64,000 nucleotides of DNA, taken from the NCBI RefSeq assembly GCF_026230195.1, contig NZ_CP036501.1, positions 2,542,001 through 2,606,000 on the forward strand, given 5' to 3'. Shown here piece after piece: positions 45,410-64,000 of the stretch. The notes under the pieces were generated by a model. It saw only the letters and a list, made by a program, of their open reading frames with translations, searched no databases and was not told the origin of the DNA. The first letter of the stretch is position 1, and the number at the start of each line of letters is the position of its first letter. Source of the DNA: Candidatus Paraluminiphilus aquimaris. GTDB lineage: Bacteria; Pseudomonadota; Gammaproteobacteria; Pseudomonadales; Halieaceae. The position numbers were made by a program, and so were the translations under genes.

Positions 45410-45988
45410 ATGCTAGGGGACTATGCCGTACTGCTGGTTGCCGCAGTGCTGGTCAACAATTTCGTACTGGTCCAGTTTTTGGGCCTGTGCCCCTTTATGG
45501 GCGTTTCAAACAAGCTCGATACGGCAATCGGTATGTCCGCCGCAACGACCTTCGTTCTAACACTTGCCTCGGTTTGCAGTTACCTCACGTATCGCTACTT
45601 ACTCGAACCGCTCGATTTGACGTACCTTCGAACACTATCGTTTATTCTCGTGATCGCGGTCGTTGTCCAATTTACGGAGATGGTTGTCCGAAAAACCAGC
45701 CCGCTGCTGCACCGGGTGCTTGGTGTTTATTTACCCCTCATCACAACGAATTGTGCGGTTTTGGGTGTTGCGCTGTTGAACATCAATCAAGCGCACAACT
45801 TTATGCAAAGCCTCATCTATGGCATGGGCGCGGCACTGGGATTCTCCTTGGTGCTGGTGCTGTTTGCTGCGATGCGCGAACGCCTCGTCGTGGCTGACGT
45901 TCCCGAAGCCTTCCAAGGTGCCGCGATTGGTATGGTCACCGCTGGGCTCGCGTCGCTGGCTTTCATGGGCTTTGCTGGGTTGGTCTGA
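45410..45988 (+). CDS. rsxA: Rsx/Rnf complex subunit A
   Basis: RsxA is an integral membrane subunit of the Rnf-type electron-transport complex that moves electrons between NADH and ferredoxin-like carriers and, in E. coli, keeps SoxR reduced. [20 protein letters not shown] and [20 protein letters not shown] with [19 protein letters not shown] are nearly invariant in RsxA. The ATG at 45410 (MLGDYAVLL) matches the family N-terminus and has GGAG 5 bases upstream; the frame extends to a TTG at 45368. 192 residues, six membrane segments. First gene of the operon. Confidence 0.96.
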
Positions 45989-46611
45989 TGATTGAGATGA
46001 TTCTCGCCAATCCGATATTGCTAGCACTCGCCGCATTGGTGGGTATGGCTATCGTTTTCGGTGCGCTTTTGGGCTTTGCGGCTGTCCGCTTTGAAGTTGA
46101 AGGGAATCCGCTCTCCGATCAAATCAATAGCATTCTTCCACAAACGCAGTGCGGCCAGTGCGGCTATCCCGGTTGCAGGCCTTACGCAGAGGCGATTGCC
46201 GAGGGTGATTCGATTAACAAGTGCCCTCCGGGTGGCGAAGATACCATTCAAGCGCTGGCAAACTTGTTGGACGTTGAGCCCGAGCCACTGGATGCAGAGC
46301 ACGGTATCGAAGCCGAGCCCACCGTTGCCTTTATCCGGGAGGATGAGTGTATTGGTTGCACAAAGTGCATTCAGGCGTGTCCTGTTGATGCAATCTTGGG
46401 TGCAGCCAAACAAATGCACACCGTTATTATCGATGAGTGCACGGGCTGTGACTTGTGTGTTGAGCCCTGCCCTGTCGATTGTATTGACATGATTCCAAGG
46501 AAAGGCGGTATTCAGCATTGGTACTGGCCACTGCCCAATGAAGCCTCCAGCGATAACCTTATTGCCACTGACAGGCCTTCAGAGAATACGCGGGAGCAGG
46601 CCGCGGCATGA
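45988..46611 (+). CDS. rsxB: Rsx/Rnf complex subunit B (ferredoxin)
   Basis: RsxB is a membrane-anchored iron-sulfur protein. It has an N-terminal transmembrane helix, the 4Fe-4S domain [20 protein letters not shown] (near residues 50-70) and two ferredoxin-type clusters [16 protein letters not shown] and [16 protein letters not shown] (about 125-175). 207 residues. The start overlaps the rsxA stop (TGATG) and the stop overlaps the rsxC start by 4 bases. Confidence 0.96.
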
Positions 46612-48131
46612 GGCAGATCTTTGATATTCATGGTGGCATTCATCCGCCAGAACGAAAGGAGCTTGCCGACCCGGGGTACGTTCACGAAATGCCGCTACCC
46701 TCCAAGCTAGTGCTCCCTATTTCCCAGCATATCGGTGCGCCCGCAAGACCTGTTGTGGAAGTGGGTGACGCCGTAAAAGGCGGGCAAATGATTGCTGAAG
46801 CGCAGGGCCCCGTCAGCGTGCCCGTTCACGCACCCAGCTCAGGCACCGTCACTGCCATTGAGTCACGTGCTGTGCCACACGCTTCTGGCTTAACCGCCAC
46901 GTGTATTGAGATCAGCTTGGACGGCAACGATAGCTGGATAGACTTAAAAGGCCTTGAGGATTGGCGTGAGACACCCAAACCTGAGCTCGTCGAGCGCGTT
47001 CGTCAAGCCGGTATCGCAGGTCTCGGCGGTGCAGGATTCCCGACAGCCATTAAGCTCGCCTCCGACCGTGAGCTCGGCATTCACACGCTGATCATTAACG
47101 GCACAGAATGCGAGCCATACATCTCGGCGGACGATACCGTCATGCAGTGTTGTGCGCGCGAGATTGTTGAGGGAGCGGAGATCCTCGCTCACATGGTTGG
47201 CGCACAGAACATCATTCTCGCTGTCGAGGACAACAAGCCGGAGGCTGCTGAGGCAATGGCAAACGCCGCCCAAGCGCTTGAGATCGCCGATGTGGTGACC
47301 TTCCCGACTAAATATCCCTCGGGCGGTGAAAAGCAGCTCATTGAGATTCTATTCGACATGCAGGTTCCCTCGGGCGGCATCCCCGCTGACATTGGGATCC
47401 TGTGCCAAAACCCGAGTACGGCTGTTGCGGTTCGCGATGCACTGATTAACGGTAAGCCCCTGACAGATCGGATTACGACTGTGACGGGCATGTCATTGAA
47501 AAAACCTGGCAACCGCCGTGTCATGCTGGGAACGCCCATTCGTGAACTGCTCGATGAGGCGGCCTTTGATGCCGAGACGGCTGACCGGGTCATTCATGGT
47601 GGCCCCATGATGGGCTTTGCAGTGACTGACCTCGACATGCCGGTGGTAAAGATCACCAACTGCATACTGGCGCCAACGCGCACTGAGATACCCTCTCCAC
47701 AGCCACAACAGGCCTGTATTCGTTGTGGTATGTGTGCCGAGGCTTGCCCGGCATCGCTCCTACCGCAACAACTGTATTGGTATGCACGCGCCAAAGATAA
47801 CGAGCAACTTGAGCGACATAACCTACTCGACTGTATCGAATGTGGGGCGTGTGCCTACGTGTGCCCAAGTCATATTCCGTTAGTTCAATATTATCGCTCG
47901 GCAAAAGGTGCGATTCGGGAGGCCGCAAATGAAAAAGTACGGTCCGACAACTCGCGTTTACGGTTCGAAGCGCGTCAAGAACGTTTAGAACGGGAAGCGG
48001 CCGCAAAAGAAGCGAAACGTGCAGCCAGAAAAGCGGCCGCCGAAGCGCGCGCAAAATCGGGAGATGATCCGGTCCAAGCAGCCATCGAGCGTGCAAAGGC
48101 GAAAAAAGCCAGTCAGGAGGCAGAGCAATGA
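46608..48131 (+). CDS. rsxC: Rsx/Rnf complex subunit C
   Basis: RsxC is the peripheral NADH-binding/iron-sulfur subunit. The 507-residue protein has the biotin-lipoyl-like SLBB start ([13 protein letters not shown]), the NADH/FMN region [33 protein letters not shown], and two 4Fe-4S motifs [15 protein letters not shown] and [15 protein letters not shown] (about 365-425). The C-terminal Ala/Lys/Glu-rich extension is short (about 80 residues), compared with the very long repeat tail of E. coli RsxC. Overlaps rsxB and rsxD by 4 bases each. Confidence 0.96.
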
Positions 48132-49162
48132 GCCTCATGCATGTCTCATCGCCTCACGTACACAAGCCTGTGACATCGGTTGAACAGGTCATGAAGCAGG
48201 TCTTACTTGCGACAGTTCCTGGCGTTCTTGCACTCACCTGGTTTTTTGGTCCGGGTACACTTGTGAACATTGTGTTTGGTTCTATGTTGGCTCTGGGATT
48301 CGAAGCTTGGGCGCTGTGGTTACGAGGTAAAGACTTTAAGTCGCCGCTCAAAGACCACAGTGTCATCGTAACGGCAACGCTGCTTTGTATTGCACTGCCT
48401 CCCTATGCGCCTTGGTGGTTAGTGGCGGTTGGAATAGGTGTTTCAGTTTTGCTGGGTAAGCATGTATTCGGTGGGCTGGGATACAACCCCTTTAACCCGG
48501 CAATGGTGGGATATGTCGTGTTGCTGGTGTCATTCCCTTTGCAAATGAGCTCCTGGACAGAACCCCGCGGGGTTGGCGAGGTCCCGGGACTCGTCGATGC
48601 CCTAACCGCGCTCTTTTTGCCAGCAAGCTTCGACGGTGTGACGGCAGCGACGCCGCTGGACCTGTTCCGACAAAACGCGGGCATGCTCTTTGATGATCTA
48701 ATGATGTCAAAAACGGAGCTTGCAGGTCCCCTCGCGGGAGTTGGGTGGGATATCGTCAATCTCGCCTTCCTCGCCGGCGGTATCTGGCTGCTTCGCCAGC
48801 GTATTTTTACCTGGCATGCACCTGTGGGCATGCTGAGTGCACTCACTATTTGCGCCCTGTTGGGCTTTGATGAGGGTAGCTCTACCGGTGGGGGCTCTGT
48901 CCTATTCCATCTGTTCAGTGGCGCTACAATGTTCGGCGCGTTCTTCATTATCACGGATCCTGTCAGTTCAGCCGTCTCGAATCGAGGTCGACTCATATTT
49001 GGCGCAGGTGTGGGTGTATTGGTCTATCTCATACGCGTAAATGGCAATTACCCCGATGCTGTCGCATTTGGCGTGCTGTTGCTGAACTTTGCCGCACCGT
49101 TTATCGATCAATACACACAGCCCCGGGTATATGGCACCAAAAAAATTGAGGTCGACGAGTGA
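48128..49162 (+). CDS. rsxD: Rsx/Rnf complex subunit D
   Basis: RsxD is a polytopic membrane subunit with covalently bound FMN. SSPHVHKPVTSVEQVMKQVL at the N-terminus, GGLGYNPFNPAMVGYVVLLVSFP, and the FMN-attachment motif SGAT in LFSGATMFGAFFIITDPVSS are diagnostic. 344 residues with nine to ten hydrophobic segments. The ATG overlaps the rsxC stop by 4 bases. Confidence 0.96.
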   Translation: MSLMHVSSPHVHKPVTSVEQVMKQVLLATVPGVLALTWFFGPGTLVNIVFGSMLALGFEAWALWLRGKDFKSPLKDHSVIVTATLLCIALPPYAPWWLVAVGIGVSVLLGKHVFGGLGYNPFNPAMVGYVVLLVSFPLQMSSWTEPRGVGEVPGLVDALTALFLPASFDGVTAATPLDLFRQNAGMLFDDLMMSKTELAGPLAGVGWDIVNLAFLAGGIWLLRQRIFTWHAPVGMLSALTICALLGFDEGSSTGGGSVLFHLFSGATMFGAFFIITDPVSSAVSNRGRLIFGAGVGVLVYLIRVNGNYPDAVAFGVLLLNFAAPFIDQYTQPRVYGTKKIEVDE

Positions 49163-49797
49163 GAACGGTTATTTCGAGCCTGATTGGTGCCGCGCTTCTC
49201 GCTGCTTTTGCCGCAGTCGGGTCGGGATTAATCAGCGGCGTCTACGAGCAGACCAAAGCACCCATTGCCGCGGCAGAGCGCGCCGCAGAAGCGCGACAAT
49301 TGCTGGAGATTTTTCCCGCCCTTACTCACGATAATCAATTGATCGACGATACTTTTAATCTCGACGCCGATGGACCTTTGCTAGCGCTGCGCGAGCAAAC
49401 ATCAGGGTATCGAGCTCGCAAGAACGGTGAGGTCGCAGGTGTGATTCTTCCTGTCACCGCACGCGACGGTTACAGTGGTGACATACGGTTACTGGTCGGT
49501 GTCTACCGGTCAGGGATGGTTGCTGGCGTTCGTGTACTGAGCCACCGGGAAACGCCAGGACTTGGTGATAAAGTTGAGCTTAAAAAGTCACCTTGGATTT
49601 TGTCCTTCGACAGCAAAACCTTGGTAAAGCCCTCGCTAGAGCGATGGGCTGTCGTAAAGGATGGCGGTGAGTTCGACGCGTTTACAGGAGCGACCGTCAC
49701 GCCTCGCGCTGTCGTCTCCGCCGTCAAAAGTGCCTTGGAATATGCGCAAACGCATAAACAAGACCTATTCGAGCTCGTCGAAGAGGATGCATCATGA
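49159..49797 (+). CDS. rsxG: Rsx/Rnf complex subunit G
   Basis: RsxG is a periplasmic, single-anchor subunit carrying covalent FMN. The N-terminal helix [20 protein letters not shown] is followed by the FMN-binding domain with [18 protein letters not shown] and the attachment motif TGAT in [15 protein letters not shown] (near residue 175). 212 residues. Translation starts at a GTG overlapping the rsxD stop by 4 bases. Confidence 0.95.
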
Positions 49798-50504
49798 GCA
49801 CCCAAAGCTATCGCCAGATCACCCACAATGGACTGTGGAAAAACAATCCAGCGTTGGTGCAGTTATTAGGACTCTGCCCTCTACTTGCCGTCACTGCGAG
49901 TGTGGTCAACGCATTGGGGCTTGCAGCGGCGACGCTGTTCGTCTTGGTCACTTCCAACTTGTGCGTATCACTCATTAGAAACGTCGTCACAGAGTCGATT
50001 CGTCTTCCGGCTTTTGTGCTTATTATCGCTGCCGCGGTGACCGGCACAGAATTGCTGATGCAAGCCTACGCGTATGAGCTTTATCAAATTTTGGGTATTT
50101 TCTTGCCGCTTATTACAACCAACTGCGTCATCCTGGGTCGCGCGGATGCCTTTGCCGCTAAAAACCCTGTCGCACCGGCTGTCGCTGACGGATTCATGAT
50201 GGGCATGGGTTTCGGCTTGGTACTGGTAGTACTGGGGGCGATTCGAGAATTACTTGGCACGGGCGCCGTATTTGCCAATATGGATTTACTTCTCGGGTCT
50301 ATGGCCGCCGACTGGACCTTGGTTGTAGCGGAGGACTACACAGGTCTTTTATTAGCGATTTTGCCACCAGGGGCCTTTATTATTACAGGCCTCTTGATCG
50401 CCGCGAAAAATGTTATCGATACACGAATAGAGAACATGCGGCGCTCTGAGACCACTGTCGAAGTAGGCAGTAAGCGGGTCCGTGTTACGGGAGAGATCGC
50501 CTAG
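49794..50504 (+). CDS. rsxE: Rsx/Rnf complex subunit E
   Basis: RsxE is the sixth membrane subunit, paralogous to Rsx[63 protein letters not shown] and [15 protein letters not shown] are typical. 236 residues with six membrane segments. It closes the rsxABCDGE operon. In E. coli nth follows here; in this window it does not. Its stop codon interlocks with that of the opposing unknown gene (4 bases, CTAG). Confidence 0.96.
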
Positions 50505-59485: not shown

Positions 59486-60424
59486 ATGAGCCGACTAGGT
59501 CGCGTCGATTTGAACCTTCTTGTTTACCTTGATGCGCTGCTGCGTGAGCGAAACGTTACCCAGGCGGCGCACAGTCTAGGACTGTCCCAGCCTGCGATGA
59601 GTAATGGCTTAAAGCGACTTCGCGAGGTCTTCAACGACCCGTTGCTGATTCGCACATCCGACGGCATGACTCCCACGGCCAAAGCTGAGGAACTAGAGCC
59701 TCAGCTAAGAGAGATCCTCACCAATGTTGATCGAGCTCTGCAACCCACTGAGGAATTCATACCAGAGACAGAAAACCGCGTAGTGCGACTCATGGCCAGT
59801 GACTATGCCGAGTCGACGTTGCTTCCTGCCGTACTCAAAGAGCTTCGTGAAAAAGCGCCGGGCATCACGCTCGACATCATGAACCCTTCTGATGTGAGCT
59901 TTCTCGACGTAGAACGGGGGAAAGTCGACCTCGTAATCAACCGGTTTGTTCAGATGCCCCAGTCATTCCACCAGATTACGCTGTGGCAAGACACGTTTTC
60001 GTGTCTATTAAGCCCTGACAATCAAATTCTTGAAGACTTCAACCTCGACGCGTATCTCGCTGCGGACCACATCTGGGTGAGTAAAACGGGTATGGGTGTC
60101 GGAGTTGGCGTAAACCCAGACGATGTCCAACGCCTAGGATGGGTAGATGCGGCGCTTGATGGATTGGGTAAGAAACGCCGTATCAGGGTGTTTACCCGCC
60201 ACTATCAAGCGGCGATGACGCTGGCAGAACAAAACGATTTGATCGTAACGCTGCCCACGCGCGCCACCGAATTGAAACGTGACAACCCTCGCGTGGTAGC
60301 GAGGCCCGTACCTTTCGAGATTCCGCCTCTGGAGCTTAAGATGGCGTGGAGTCCGTTATTACAACACAACCCGGGTCATCGCTGGATTCGTCAACTTATC
60401 ACCCAGATTGCGCGGTCCATTTGA
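59486..60424 (+). CDS. LysR-family transcriptional regulator
   Basis: A 312-residue LysR-type regulator. The winged HTH is VDLNLLVYLDALLRERNVTQAAHSLGLS and then QPAMSNGLKRLREVFNDPLL (residues 7-60), a pattern of the NodD/SyrM-like subgroup. The C-terminal effector domain (about 95-310) is of the periplasmic-binding type. Divergent from the acyl-CoA dehydrogenase with an inverted repeat between, and 29 bases before the two-domain oxygenase gene on the same strand, so it may control either side. Effector unknown. Confidence 0.93.
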   Translation: MSRLGRVDLNLLVYLDALLRERNVTQAAHSLGLSQPAMSNGLKRLREVFNDPLLIRTSDGMTPTAKAEELEPQLREILTNVDRALQPTEEFIPETENRVVRLMASDYAESTLLPAVLKELREKAPGITLDIMNPSDVSFLDVERGKVDLVINRFVQMPQSFHQITLWQDTFSCLLSPDNQILEDFNLDAYLAADHIWVSKTGMGVGVGVNPDDVQRLGWVDAALDGLGKKRRIRVFTRHYQAAMTLAEQNDLIVTLPTRATELKRDNPRVVARPVPFEIPPLELKMAWSPLLQHNPGHRWIRQLITQIARSI

Positions 60425-60453: not shown

Positions 60454-62175
60454 ATGAGTGAAACGATCCATCTTAAAGGCAGTTATGAGGCCACCGAAGC
60501 CTACTCGCTAGACCCACTCGTAGGGGTTCGGAATAACGTACTCTCCCCTATTGAATGCGCCTACTTGATCGAGCTCGCCAAACCGCATGTTAAACGTGCG
60601 GGCGTTGTATTGGATGAAGGCTACAAGGCAAGTGAGGGTCGGACAGGTTCCAACCACTGGCTGAAATACGACGAAGACGATGTCGTGCAATCGATCGGTA
60701 AGCGCATCGCGGACATCGTGGGCTTACCTTTGGCCAACGCAGAGTCAATGCAAATCATTCATTACGGACCCGAGCAGGAGTACCGTCCGCACTTCGATGC
60801 CTTTAACTTGTCACTTCCCCGGGGACAGCGTGCTGCAAAATGGGGGGGGCAACGCTTGGTAACTGCACTCGTCTATCTCAACAACGTTCAAGCCGGCGGT
60901 GCGACACAGTTTCCCAAGCTCGGTATTACCGTACCCGCGACACCGGGTCGTATGGTGATCTTCCACAATACAACACACGATATCAGTGGTCCTCACCCAT
61001 TGAGCCTTCACGCTGGCATGCCGGTCGAGGCGGGGGAGAAATGGGCGTTTAACATGTGGTTCCGTTTGCAGGACACCACTGACGAATTTGTGCCAGGAGA
61101 GGTACTACCGACCGTCGCTATTGGTCAATCTGTCGATATACCTCATGGACCGCAGGTTTCCGACAATCCGTCTGCACCGGTGAAACCTGAGCGTCTTAAT
61201 ACCTCGAACACATCAAGCACATCGGGTGCGGCAGATACGGCCTCCGCCACGGGGGGCCTGACGGTTCGAGCGAATCGCGCCGATGCACTTTGGCAACGGG
61301 CGGTCTCGCGCACCCAAAACTCAGCACAAGACCTACCCGATCTCCACGTCAGCTACTGGGATACCTACGGCAATAAAACACAACCAGAGCCGCCCGAGAA
61401 CTGGCCAGGTGCCACATTCCGAACAGCAAGTCGCGAGGTGCTAAACCCCCTTTCAGACATCGCCTTTGTTGCATCTTCTTTGGCATCAAGCGGTCATTCG
61501 CAACTCATCCCAACCACCTTTACAACTTCGGCTGCGGCGATAGCTGTCGGACCGAAAGCCGACGATCTCTGGTTTATCCGCAGTAAGCTGAGAACAGCAA
61601 GAAATAAAACGCTCTGTTTGCCTACTCCGGTCATGATGGCAGCCACCGTACCCTCGGACAGGGTCATCCAGAAGGCCGTAGATCGATTAGCACTGATCGA
61701 TCAGCACAAATTTACGGCGCGCCTTTATCTCGCCATTATCGGTAATCAACTCTTTTGTGCCGACGAAAGTGTTTTGTTCGTGCACGGCGCGAGCTATGCG
61801 CCTAACGATCCCAATTTTGCCTCGCAAGTAGACAACTTGAGCTACCGCGAGACGGGGTCGTCTATTCGTGTGATAGCGGGCGGCCAGTCACCCTTTGCCA
61901 AGACGTTGATAACAGCTGGAAGAACGCTAGCGGCAGAGCTTGAAGGGTTGTTGGCCGATGTCATTACCGACTGCGCGGACGGGGCCTTTGCATTACTGGC
62001 ACTCGACACCCTGCTTACGCAGGCCAACGAGCTAAAACTGCTCCGTATCCATACCTTCCCAAACTTCATGATCAACGCCGACATTGACGCGGCTGTTCAT
62101 GTACCCCTCTTTGAGGACGTATTGAGGGTAATGGCAGGGAGCGCACCGAGCCAGCTGAGCCTTATCACAAATTAA
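60454..62175 (+). CDS. Fusion of prolyl-4-hydroxylase-like 2OG-Fe(II) oxygenase with TTL/ATP-grasp-like domain
   Basis: A 573-residue two-domain protein, no signal peptide. Residues about 1-210 are a prolyl 4-hydroxylase-type oxygenase: HFD in EYRPHFDAFNLSL (H113, D115), LVTALVYLNNVQAGGATQFP, distal His in SLHAGMPV (H186) and GEKWAFNMWFR with K196 for 2-oxoglutarate. A Ser/Thr/Ala-rich linker (about 235-270) follows. The C-terminal part resembles tubulin-tyrosine-ligase/ATP-grasp proteins: LWFIRS (372-377), VIQKAVDRLALIDQHKFTAR (404-423) followed by LYLAI, and FALLALDTLL (D518) with LLRIHTFPNF (529-538). In the last, the usual metal Glu and Asn (LLEVN) are Arg531 and His533, so activity may be altered or lost. 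Fold of the C-terminal part is inference. 29 bases after lysR. Confidence 0.72.
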   Translation: MSETIHLKGSYEATEAYSLDPLVGVRNNVLSPIECAYLIELAKPHVKRAGVVLDEGYKASEGRTGSNHWLKYDEDDVVQSIGKRIADIVGLPLANAESMQIIHYGPEQEYRPHFDAFNLSLPRGQRAAKWGGQRLVTALVYLNNVQAGGATQFPKLGITVPATPGRMVIFHNTTHDISGPHPLSLHAGMPVEAGEKWAFNMWFRLQDTTDEFVPGEVLPTVAIGQSVDIPHGPQVSDNPSAPVKPERLNTSNTSSTSGAADTASATGGLTVRANRADALWQRAVSRTQNSAQDLPDLHVSYWDTYGNKTQPEPPENWPGATFRTASREVLNPLSDIAFVASSLASSGHSQLIPTTFTTSAAAIAVGPKADDLWFIRSKLRTARNKTLCLPTPVMMAATVPSDRVIQKAVDRLALIDQHKFTARLYLAIIGNQLFCADESVLFVHGASYAPNDPNFASQVDNLSYRETGSSIRVIAGGQSPFAKTLITAGRTLAAELEGLLADVITDCADGAFALLALDTLLTQANELKLLRIHTFPNFMINADIDAAVHVPLFEDVLRVMAGSAPSQLSLITN

Positions 62176-62311: not shown

Positions 62312-64000
62312 ATGTCAGAACGTATCGATTGCGCCGGCCTTCAAGTCGCTCCAGAAATTCACAGCCTGCTTGAAAATGAGATTTTACCGGGCACGGGCTT
62401 GGAGCCCACTGCATTTTGGACCGCCTTAGCCGACATTGTTGCGCGTTTTTCACCGCGTAACCGTGAATTGCTCGCTGTCCGCGATGATATGCAGGCTCAA
62501 ATCAGCGCCTGGCACGTAGCCAATCCCGGACGTGACTACGACCGAGCAGCCTATAAAGAGATGCTGGAAGACATTGGGTACCTCCTCCCGCAACCTGCGC
62601 CCTTTAAGATTGCGACGCAACATGTTGACCCGGAGATTGCAGAGGTTGCAGGGCCGCAGCTCGTGGTGCCCGTGATGAACGCACGATATGCGCTCAATGC
62701 CGCCAACGCACGTTGGGGTTCACTCTACGATGCGCTTTATGGAACGGACGTGATTTCAGAAGAGGATGGTGCGGTTCGCGCTGGGGCTTACAACCCCGTT
62801 CGTGGACACAAAGTCATCGAGTGGGCGCGTGATTTTCTCGATTCACACTTCCCATTGAATCAAGGCACGCACAAAAATGCGGCACATTATGCAGTGGTTG
62901 ATGGCGGCCTCATTATTAATCAAATCGACGGTAGCTTAAGTGTGCTCTCGTCTCCCGATCAGTTCATCGGCTTCACTGGCGATGCTGACGACCCTGTAGG
63001 CGTGCTGCTAAAGCACAACGGCCTCCACGCCGAAATCCAAATCGATCGCGATCACTCGGTAGGAAGTACCGATGCGGCGGGCGTTAAAGACGTTTGCCTA
63101 GAGTCAGCGCTTACCACCATTCAGGACTGTGAAGACTCAGTAGCGGCAGTGGATGCCGAGGACAAAGCCATCGTTTATCGGAACTGGCTAGGACTCATGC
63201 GCGGCGATCTCAACGAGAGCTTTACCAAGGGTGGCCAGACACTCACTCGAAGCTTAAATAAAGACCGCGAGTTCACATCCCCCGGTGGCGATACCGTTAC
63301 CCTGCCCGGTCGCAGCCTCATGTTCGTTCGCAACGTCGGTCACCTGATGACCAACCCCGCCATTCTCGACGCTGAGGGCAACGAAATTTTTGAGGGCATC
63401 ATGGATGCGCTTTTCACCACAGCTTGCTCGTTGCACGACCTGCGCGGTGCCAACAAAGGTGGTAACTCTCGAACAGGCTCCATGTACATCGTAAAACCCA
63501 AGATGCATGGCCCCGACGAAGTCAGCATGACCGTTGATCTTTTCGGTGCAGTCGAGGATGCCTTCCACCTGCCACGTAATACTATCAAGATGGGCATTAT
63601 GGATGAGGAGCGGCGTACCACGGTCAACTTGGCCGAGTGCATCCGCCGCGCTTCAGAGCGTGTGGTGTTCATTAACACGGGCTTCTTAGATCGTACCGGC
63701 GATGAAATTCATACCAGCATGGAAGCCGGACCCATGGTCGCTAAGACCGCTATGAAAGGCGAGCTTTGGATTAATGCTTACGAGGATTGGAACGTAGACA
63801 CCGGTCTCAACTGTGGTCTGCGTGGCAAGGCTCAAATTGGTAAAGGTATGTGGGCTATGCCCGACCTCATGGCCGCCATGATCGACACCAAGCTAGGACA
63901 CCCTAAAGCCGGAGCGAACTGCGCATGGGTACCCTCACCCACGGCAGCGACATTGCATGCCACGCACTACCACGACGTCTGTGTTGCGGGCATCCAGGCA
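62312..64000 (+). CDS. glcB: Malate synthase G (3' end outside window)
   Basis: GlcB condenses glyoxylate with acetyl-CoA to malate. The frame is open from the ATG at 62312 to the window edge (563 codons of a usual 720 or so). It starts [20 protein letters not shown] and contains [42 protein letters not shown] with the catalytic Arg, [36 protein letters not shown] and a [14 protein letters not shown] segment, all typical of isoform G. The catalytic Asp near residue 630 would lie beyond the window. An ATG is clear, but no strong ribosome site precedes it. Confidence 0.96.

Follow-up and report, generated by a model that had tools for sequence, protein, structure and literature searches.

A Gene Joining a Prolyl Hydroxylase to a Degenerate TTL-like Domain

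We analysed a stretch of 64,000 nucleotides (nt) from Candidatus Paraluminiphilus aquimaris (assembly GCF_026230195.1, contig NZ_CP036501.1, positions 2,542,001–2,606,000), hereafter called the window, whose numbering is used for the coordinates of its features. It carries a gene (60454..62175; 573 amino acids from its ATG) that encodes, in one chain, a prolyl 4-hydroxylase (P4H) domain and a degenerate domain resembling tubulin tyrosine ligase (TTL). The P4H-type 2-oxoglutarate-Fe(II) oxygenase domain spans residues 20–206 (60511..61071); it is followed by a low-complexity linker, residues 207–273 (61072..61272), the length of which varies among orthologues, and by the TTL-like domain, residues 274–573 (61273..62172). 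The gene and all features described within it lie on the forward strand. In our alignments, every catalytic and motif residue named in a preliminary description of this DNA is found at the position given there.

The N-terminal half matches PF13640 in hmmscan over residues 99–204 (E = 3.8e-15; 57.1 bits against a cut-off of 27). Searched with phmmer against solved structures, approximately residues 19–205 resemble 2jig (2.1e-29), 3itq (6.5e-27) and 7zsc (P4H subunit alpha-2; 6.5e-25), which we take to originate from Chlamydomonas, Bacillus and human, respectively. The window protein is like these collagen/algal-type P4Hs in sequence over that region and in the four catalytic residues; unlike it, the matched chains (224, 216 and 262 residues) have no TTL part. 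The residues in question are H113 and D115, iron ligands 1 and 2 in an HxD motif (60790..60798), and H186 and K196 (61009..61041), the third iron ligand and, by family analogy, the 2-oxoglutarate-binding lysine; all four are present in 20 out of 20 tabulated fusion sequences. The P4H-like nature of this half, proposed in the preliminary description, is thus borne out by PF13640, by the solved P4Hs and by the catalytic residues. P4H enzymes hydroxylate proline using O2, Fe(II) and 2-oxoglutarate and, judged from its sequence, the N-terminal half most likely acts in this way on proline within a protein or peptide. In its own genome, a single contig of 2.72 Mb, the gene gives the only PF13640 match at E 0.001; in the control search, two of 14 named genomes have a match, two above the cut-off.

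The C-terminal Half Has a Predicted TTL Fold

TTL enzymes are known mostly as modifiers of tubulin. The structure predicted for the C-terminal domain has the TTL fold, and among Foldseek's best 1000 chains, rather than in an alignment to the whole PDB, it is matched by TTL (3tig), TTLL6 (6vzt), TTLL7 (4ylr) and yeast Pby1 (6y3z). The suggestion that this half has a TTL/ATP-grasp fold was therefore upheld: an ATP-grasp fold is predicted, and the C-terminal parts of the homologues are TTL domains rather than members of another family. With TTL, the TTLL glutamylases and Pby1, the C-terminal half has fold and profile similarity in common; the window lineage differs from them in being bacterial, in being joined to a P4H and in having lost the ATP-grasp lysine (11 out of 12 sequences), the glycine-rich loop and the Glu/Asn pair. 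A phmmer search of the C-terminal half against solved structures gave nothing better than E 0.3.

The gene is also the only match to PF03133 (TTL) at E 1 in the 2.72-Mb contig, scoring 13.2 bits, or 21.8 bits when neighbours in frame are included. The sequences L002, L036 and L009 score 20.7, 20.3 and 23.2 bits with the same profile.

Occurrence of the Fusion and Its Intact Relatives

A C-terminal profile scan of the named genomes yielded ten loci, all in genomes of the window's genus. The fusion occurs in 14 of the 57 genomes of that genus, G008 included, where it is cut at a contig end; a fifteenth genome, G028, whose 44-residue match lies at a contig end, was counted for position only, and two more, G024 and G030, match in the P4H half only (27–28% identity) and were not counted as fusions. 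The conservation of the fusion, one of the points raised in the preliminary description, is thereby supported, and the same domain order at the same locus in 14 of 57 genomes rules out a coding artefact or an assembly error.

The counts from wider searches with C-terminal profiles also include genomes found before and those of the queries themselves. Profile A2 hit 17 of 140 genomes in the family; profile A3 hit six of 390 genomes in the order and three of 369 in the class (two weak partial matches in each), as well as two of 398 in the phylum. In two families to which new matches belong, profile A3 hit three of 29 and four of 48 genomes; profile A7 hit five of 376 genomes, two of them with weak partial matches, in the order of one new match. 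Outside the genus, these searches revealed eight P4H–TTL fusions: L040–L042 in a different genus from the window's family, L046 and L058–L060 together in a single genus from a different family of the order, and L052 in a genome related at phylum level only. PF03133 scores above its cut-off in all seven scanned of ten intact sequences, namely L040–L042, L052, L053 (a longer copy of L046), L056 and L057. The last two (L056:1474-2376 and L057:52-960, both on the reverse strand) are intact TTL-domain relatives with no P4H in the same frame. The weak matches L047–L050 are TTL proteins (PF03133, 5.8e-27 to 1.8e-48) with no PF13640 in the parts scanned, and L064–L065 were left out of the comparison.

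The chain of L052:3048-5672 (reverse strand; 875 residues) is a triple fusion, consisting of a P4H, an N-acetylglucosamine (GlcNAc) transferase domain of PF11397 (1.6e-65) and then an intact TTL domain. We take PF11397 to be the Pfam family of the Skp1 enzyme Gnt1; the window protein has no match to it in hmmscan at E up to 1. No partner gene common to the loci of L052–L055 was seen by eye in their lists of open reading frames (ORFs), most of these ORFs being without a library scan, and the neighbourhood thus suggests no substrate.

Thioalkalivibrio sp. K90mix has a further P4H–TTL fusion, WP_018940603.1 (L066:7722-9590), on its plasmid pTK9001, which is typed as conjugative; a Thioalkalivibrio record is the only one among the plasmid records that the window's C-terminal half matches. 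The protein (PF13640, 1.7e-16; PF03133, 6.9e-6) is annotated as a 2-oxoglutarate-dependent dioxygenase only. Unlike the window lineage, it keeps a GSAGRG loop; Lys is replaced by Arg and Glu-Ile-Asn by Asp-Ile-Ser, a partly different set of ATP-grasp losses. Its end branch in the tree is longer than 4, so its residue losses may or may not be independent. Viral contigs scanned with both the degenerate and the intact C-terminal profile yielded no relative, and the ten phage records that match the window protein do so in the P4H half only; on these scans, we reject a virus or phage as the source of the C-terminal half.

Lost, New and Kept Residues in the TTL-like Domain

We compared 12 aligned sequences of the window's lineage with ten intact relatives; G014, with unknown residues, and the truncated G008 were excluded from these tables and from the trees. 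The roles of the catalytic Lys, Glu and Asn are general knowledge of ATP-grasp enzymes, combined with the present alignments. All ten intact sequences have Lys376, followed by a loop of GTGG, GTAG or GTSG type with Gly380 and Gly383, and the metal-binding Glu-Ile-Asn. In the window's lineage, the region of the former ATP-binding lysine and glycine-rich loop (residues 374–391; 61573..61626) has lost the loop in 12 out of 12 sequences, with an invariant TLC.PT in its place, and has Arg for the lysine in 11; L023 keeps Lys.

The metal-binding E-x-N is replaced by R531-I-H533 (62044..62052). As the preliminary description had proposed, the ATP-grasp Glu and Asn (10/10 in the intact relatives) have given way to Arg531 and His533, and the survey that it called for found this pair fixed in 12/12 lineage sequences; G014, in a separate alignment, has both residues too. 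Six columns in all carry one residue fixed in the lineage and another in nine or ten of the ten intact sequences: besides Arg531 for Glu and His533 for Asn, these are His549 for Asn (62098..62100; 12/12 against 10/10), Trp280 for Phe, Ser463 for Gly and Phe512 for Tyr. Thirty positions are common to both groups, including P536, N537 and F538, a cluster in residues 404–425 (61663..61728) with Q406, K419, F420, T421, R423 and Y425, and D518 (62005..62007), the kept acidic residue of the ATP-grasp metal site.

The Insertion Site and Its Neighbours

A LysR-family regulator gene (59486..60424, forward strand) ends 29 bp upstream of the fusion, and the gene for malate synthase G (glcB; 62312..64000, continuing past the window; forward strand; NF002825, 7.1e-282) forms the other flank of the insertion site. 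As far as the orthologous loci reach, their order is acyl-CoA dehydrogenase (reverse strand), LysR, fusion and malate synthase G (all forward). The LysR gene is found in 45 of the 57 genomes of the genus at E 1e-100, in 15 at 91–100% identity and in 30 at 77–81%. The close LysR occurs in all 14 fusion-bearing genomes and in G028 but in no others, and the fusion lies directly downstream of it in 15/15; in all 15 of the distant-LysR genomes read at the site, malate synthase directly follows LysR with no fusion between them, and none of the remaining 15 gave a fusion match in the family profile search. Because the site is filled in every close-LysR genome and empty in every distant-LysR genome read, the fusion gene was most simply gained once by the subclade or lost once by its sisters.

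The LysR protein is 91–98% identical to the window's in the 14 other fusion-bearing genomes. Among nine other aligned sequences, the fusion protein is 55–75% identical to the window's copy. Fusion and LysR gene are probably co-transcribed, as judged from the 29-bp gap and the shared strand; scans for promoters and terminators did no better than with shuffled sequences (3 vs 2.7 and 4 vs 3.6). In base composition, the fusion (GC 0.543; GC at third codon positions 0.575) matches LysR (0.536; 0.581) and glcB (0.550; 0.593), so that composition gives no sign of a recent foreign gene.

In G114, an 80% complete genome labelled as the window's own species, neither a fusion nor a LysR match was found; this may reflect an assembly gap, which we favour, or a strain difference. 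Elsewhere in the window, at 45988-50504, are ordinary Rnf/Rsx electron-transport genes (RnfB, C, D and E).

Evolution of the Lineage

In both the TTL and the P4H tree, a branch with 100/100 support sets the 12 lineage sequences apart from all others, as it does in a TTL tree built with masked catalytic columns. Within the lineage, L023 is the first branch in the TTL tree; the join of the lineage labelled g34 with that of the window was flagged as a meeting of long branches. The ancestor was probably intact, so that ligation would have been lost rather than never present, because intact members occur in other groups, with a wider spread, and ordinary TTLs have intact motifs.

The median protein difference in the TTL and P4H halves is 0.378 and 0.109 within the lineage, 0.605 and 0.408 among the intact fusions, and 0.720 and 0.476 between the two groups, the last distance possibly being near saturation. 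The ratio of TTL to P4H difference is 1.51 between lineage and intact fusions and 1.48 among intact fusions. The longer TTL branch as drawn (1.61 vs 0.77 for the P4H) had suggested a burst of decay in that half, a reading dropped since these ratios are alike. None of the 13 genomes with uncut copies shows a truncation or an in-frame stop.

A Probable Hydroxylase with a Proposed Substrate-Binding TTL Half

The reading that we favour, and hold to be fairly probable, is that the two-domain window protein is related to, and probably descended from, a bacterial enzyme combining a P4H with a TTL-type ATP-grasp ligase, and is now a hydroxylase with a non-ligase, substrate-binding TTL half. The observations behind it are the fusion, the predicted fold, the residue differences, the intact relatives, the single clade and ongoing purifying selection. 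In this scheme, the N-terminal half would hydroxylate its prolyl substrate; the C-terminal half would keep the TTL fold and probably no longer ligate, because it is without the glycine-rich loop, usually without the ATP lysine and without two of the three metal-site residues. The former ligase groove would bind and position the substrate, or bind the hydroxylated product, and the new Arg531/His533 pair could hold a carboxylate or phosphate at the former Mg-ATP site. The peptide-reading role suggested for this half in the preliminary description stays a hypothesis. In the intact relatives, the TTL ligase in the same chain could add an amino acid to the hydroxylated substrate, and in L052 the Gnt1-type transferase could add GlcNAc as well.

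Several points weigh against this reading. In hmmscan, PF03133 covers residues 508–559 at E 0.0021 with 17.8 bits, below its cut-off of 20.1, and in the control for the genome search at E 1, six of 14 named genomes have a match, none above the cut-off. The predicted local distance difference test score (pLDDT) is below 50 over domain residues 101–125 (374–398 of the protein), so the model is at its least certain in the former glycine-rich loop. Activity and substrate are predictions for every member of the family, the trees have no outgroup root, and the kept D518, K419 and R423 may leave room for residual nucleotide binding or unorthodox catalysis. Finally, selection constrains the P4H domain more tightly than the TTL core. 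The median ratio of nonsynonymous to synonymous substitution rates (dN/dS) is 0.027 in the P4H, 0.151 in the TTL core and 0.337 in the linker, each value coming from a simple counting method applied to those of the 66 pairs (21 or 22) whose dS is below 1.5. Over residues 274–330, dN/dS is 0.05, from 24 pairs and with a range of up to 0.445.

The kept residues raise the alternative that the TTL half still works as a ligase, with altered metal and nucleotide binding, the protein both hydroxylating and ligating. We hold this to be improbable: Q406, K419, R423 and D518 are common to degenerate and intact sequences, the domain is under purifying selection and L023, the first branch, retains Lys, but ATP-grasp enzymes generally need the metal-site residues and the loop, and here all 12 aligned lineage sequences have Arg and His at two of the three former and lack the latter. 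The TTL half could instead be an allosteric sensor of a nucleotide, an amino acid or a tail that switches the hydroxylase on or off, in keeping with the new motif fixed at the old ATP site and with the LysR regulator adjoining the fusion in the genus loci read. This too is unlikely, as the ligand is hypothetical, the core residues kept in common with intact ligases suit substrate binding equally well, and in the loci read outside the genus no close relative of the window's LysR adjoins the relatives. That the TTL half is a decaying remnant carried beside a useful hydroxylase, as its weaker constraint and its differences, larger than those of the P4H half in each of the three comparisons, could suggest, is unlikely as well, given the like ratios without a decay burst (near-saturation permitting), the reading frames free of truncations and stops, a core more constrained than the linker, and new residues that are fixed rather than scattered.

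Judged by sequence, the pattern is that of a pseudoenzyme with a kept role and not of a pseudogene, because purifying selection, fixed new residues and thirty kept positions go together. More tentatively, and on balance doubtfully, the fusions may constitute a bacterial family of single-chain tail modifiers, writing hydroxylation, an amino acid and, once, a sugar, in which the window lineage would have become a writer–reader from a writer–writer at one genomic site.

Comparable Systems and Significance

A eukaryotic parallel is TTLL12, a SET–TTL protein without critical residues, reported to be inactive in vitro, for which non-catalytic roles have been suggested (PMC3520985, in part). Like the window protein, it combines a protein-modification domain with a TTL-like domain lacking critical residues; it differs in that the partner is a SET domain rather than a P4H and is itself without critical residues, and in that it keeps EVN while losing other motifs, whereas the window lineage loses different residues (as far as described in those parts of PMC3520985).

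In the Skp1 modification pathway, the prolyl hydroxylase PhyA acts together with the GlcNAc-transferase Gnt1 (PMC9485057, in part), and protist hydroxylase genes fused to Gnt1-like regions have been reported (PMC6437050, in part). The latter fusion parallels L052, with its P4H, Gnt1-type transferase and TTL in one chain, although excerpts from both papers mention no TTL part (PMC6437050, PMC9485057). The window protein itself differs from the protist system in having no glycosyltransferase domain and, by its best matches, a P4H of collagen/algal type. A paper on CDC123 covers ATP-grasp protein modifiers in bacteria, and the words hydroxylase, dioxygenase and 2OG are absent from its main text (PMC4431377, in part). 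Among the matches listed in the open-access literature, outside which lie subscription papers and preprints, no title or opening of an abstract describes a P4H–TTL fusion, weak evidence that such a fusion is unpublished.

The occurrence of intact and catalytically stripped versions side by side offers a way to ask what non-tubulin bacterial TTLs modify. It also bears on two other questions: whether proline hydroxylation in bacteria is a step towards other modifications, as it is in protist Skp1, and by what route an ATP-grasp ligase turns into a pseudoenzyme. Intact and degenerate relatives lend themselves to direct comparison. If the tail-modifier reading is true, one substrate would receive a hydroxylation that depends on oxygen, an amino acid and, in one case, a sugar, and in the window lineage the ligase half would have turned into a reader of the mark.
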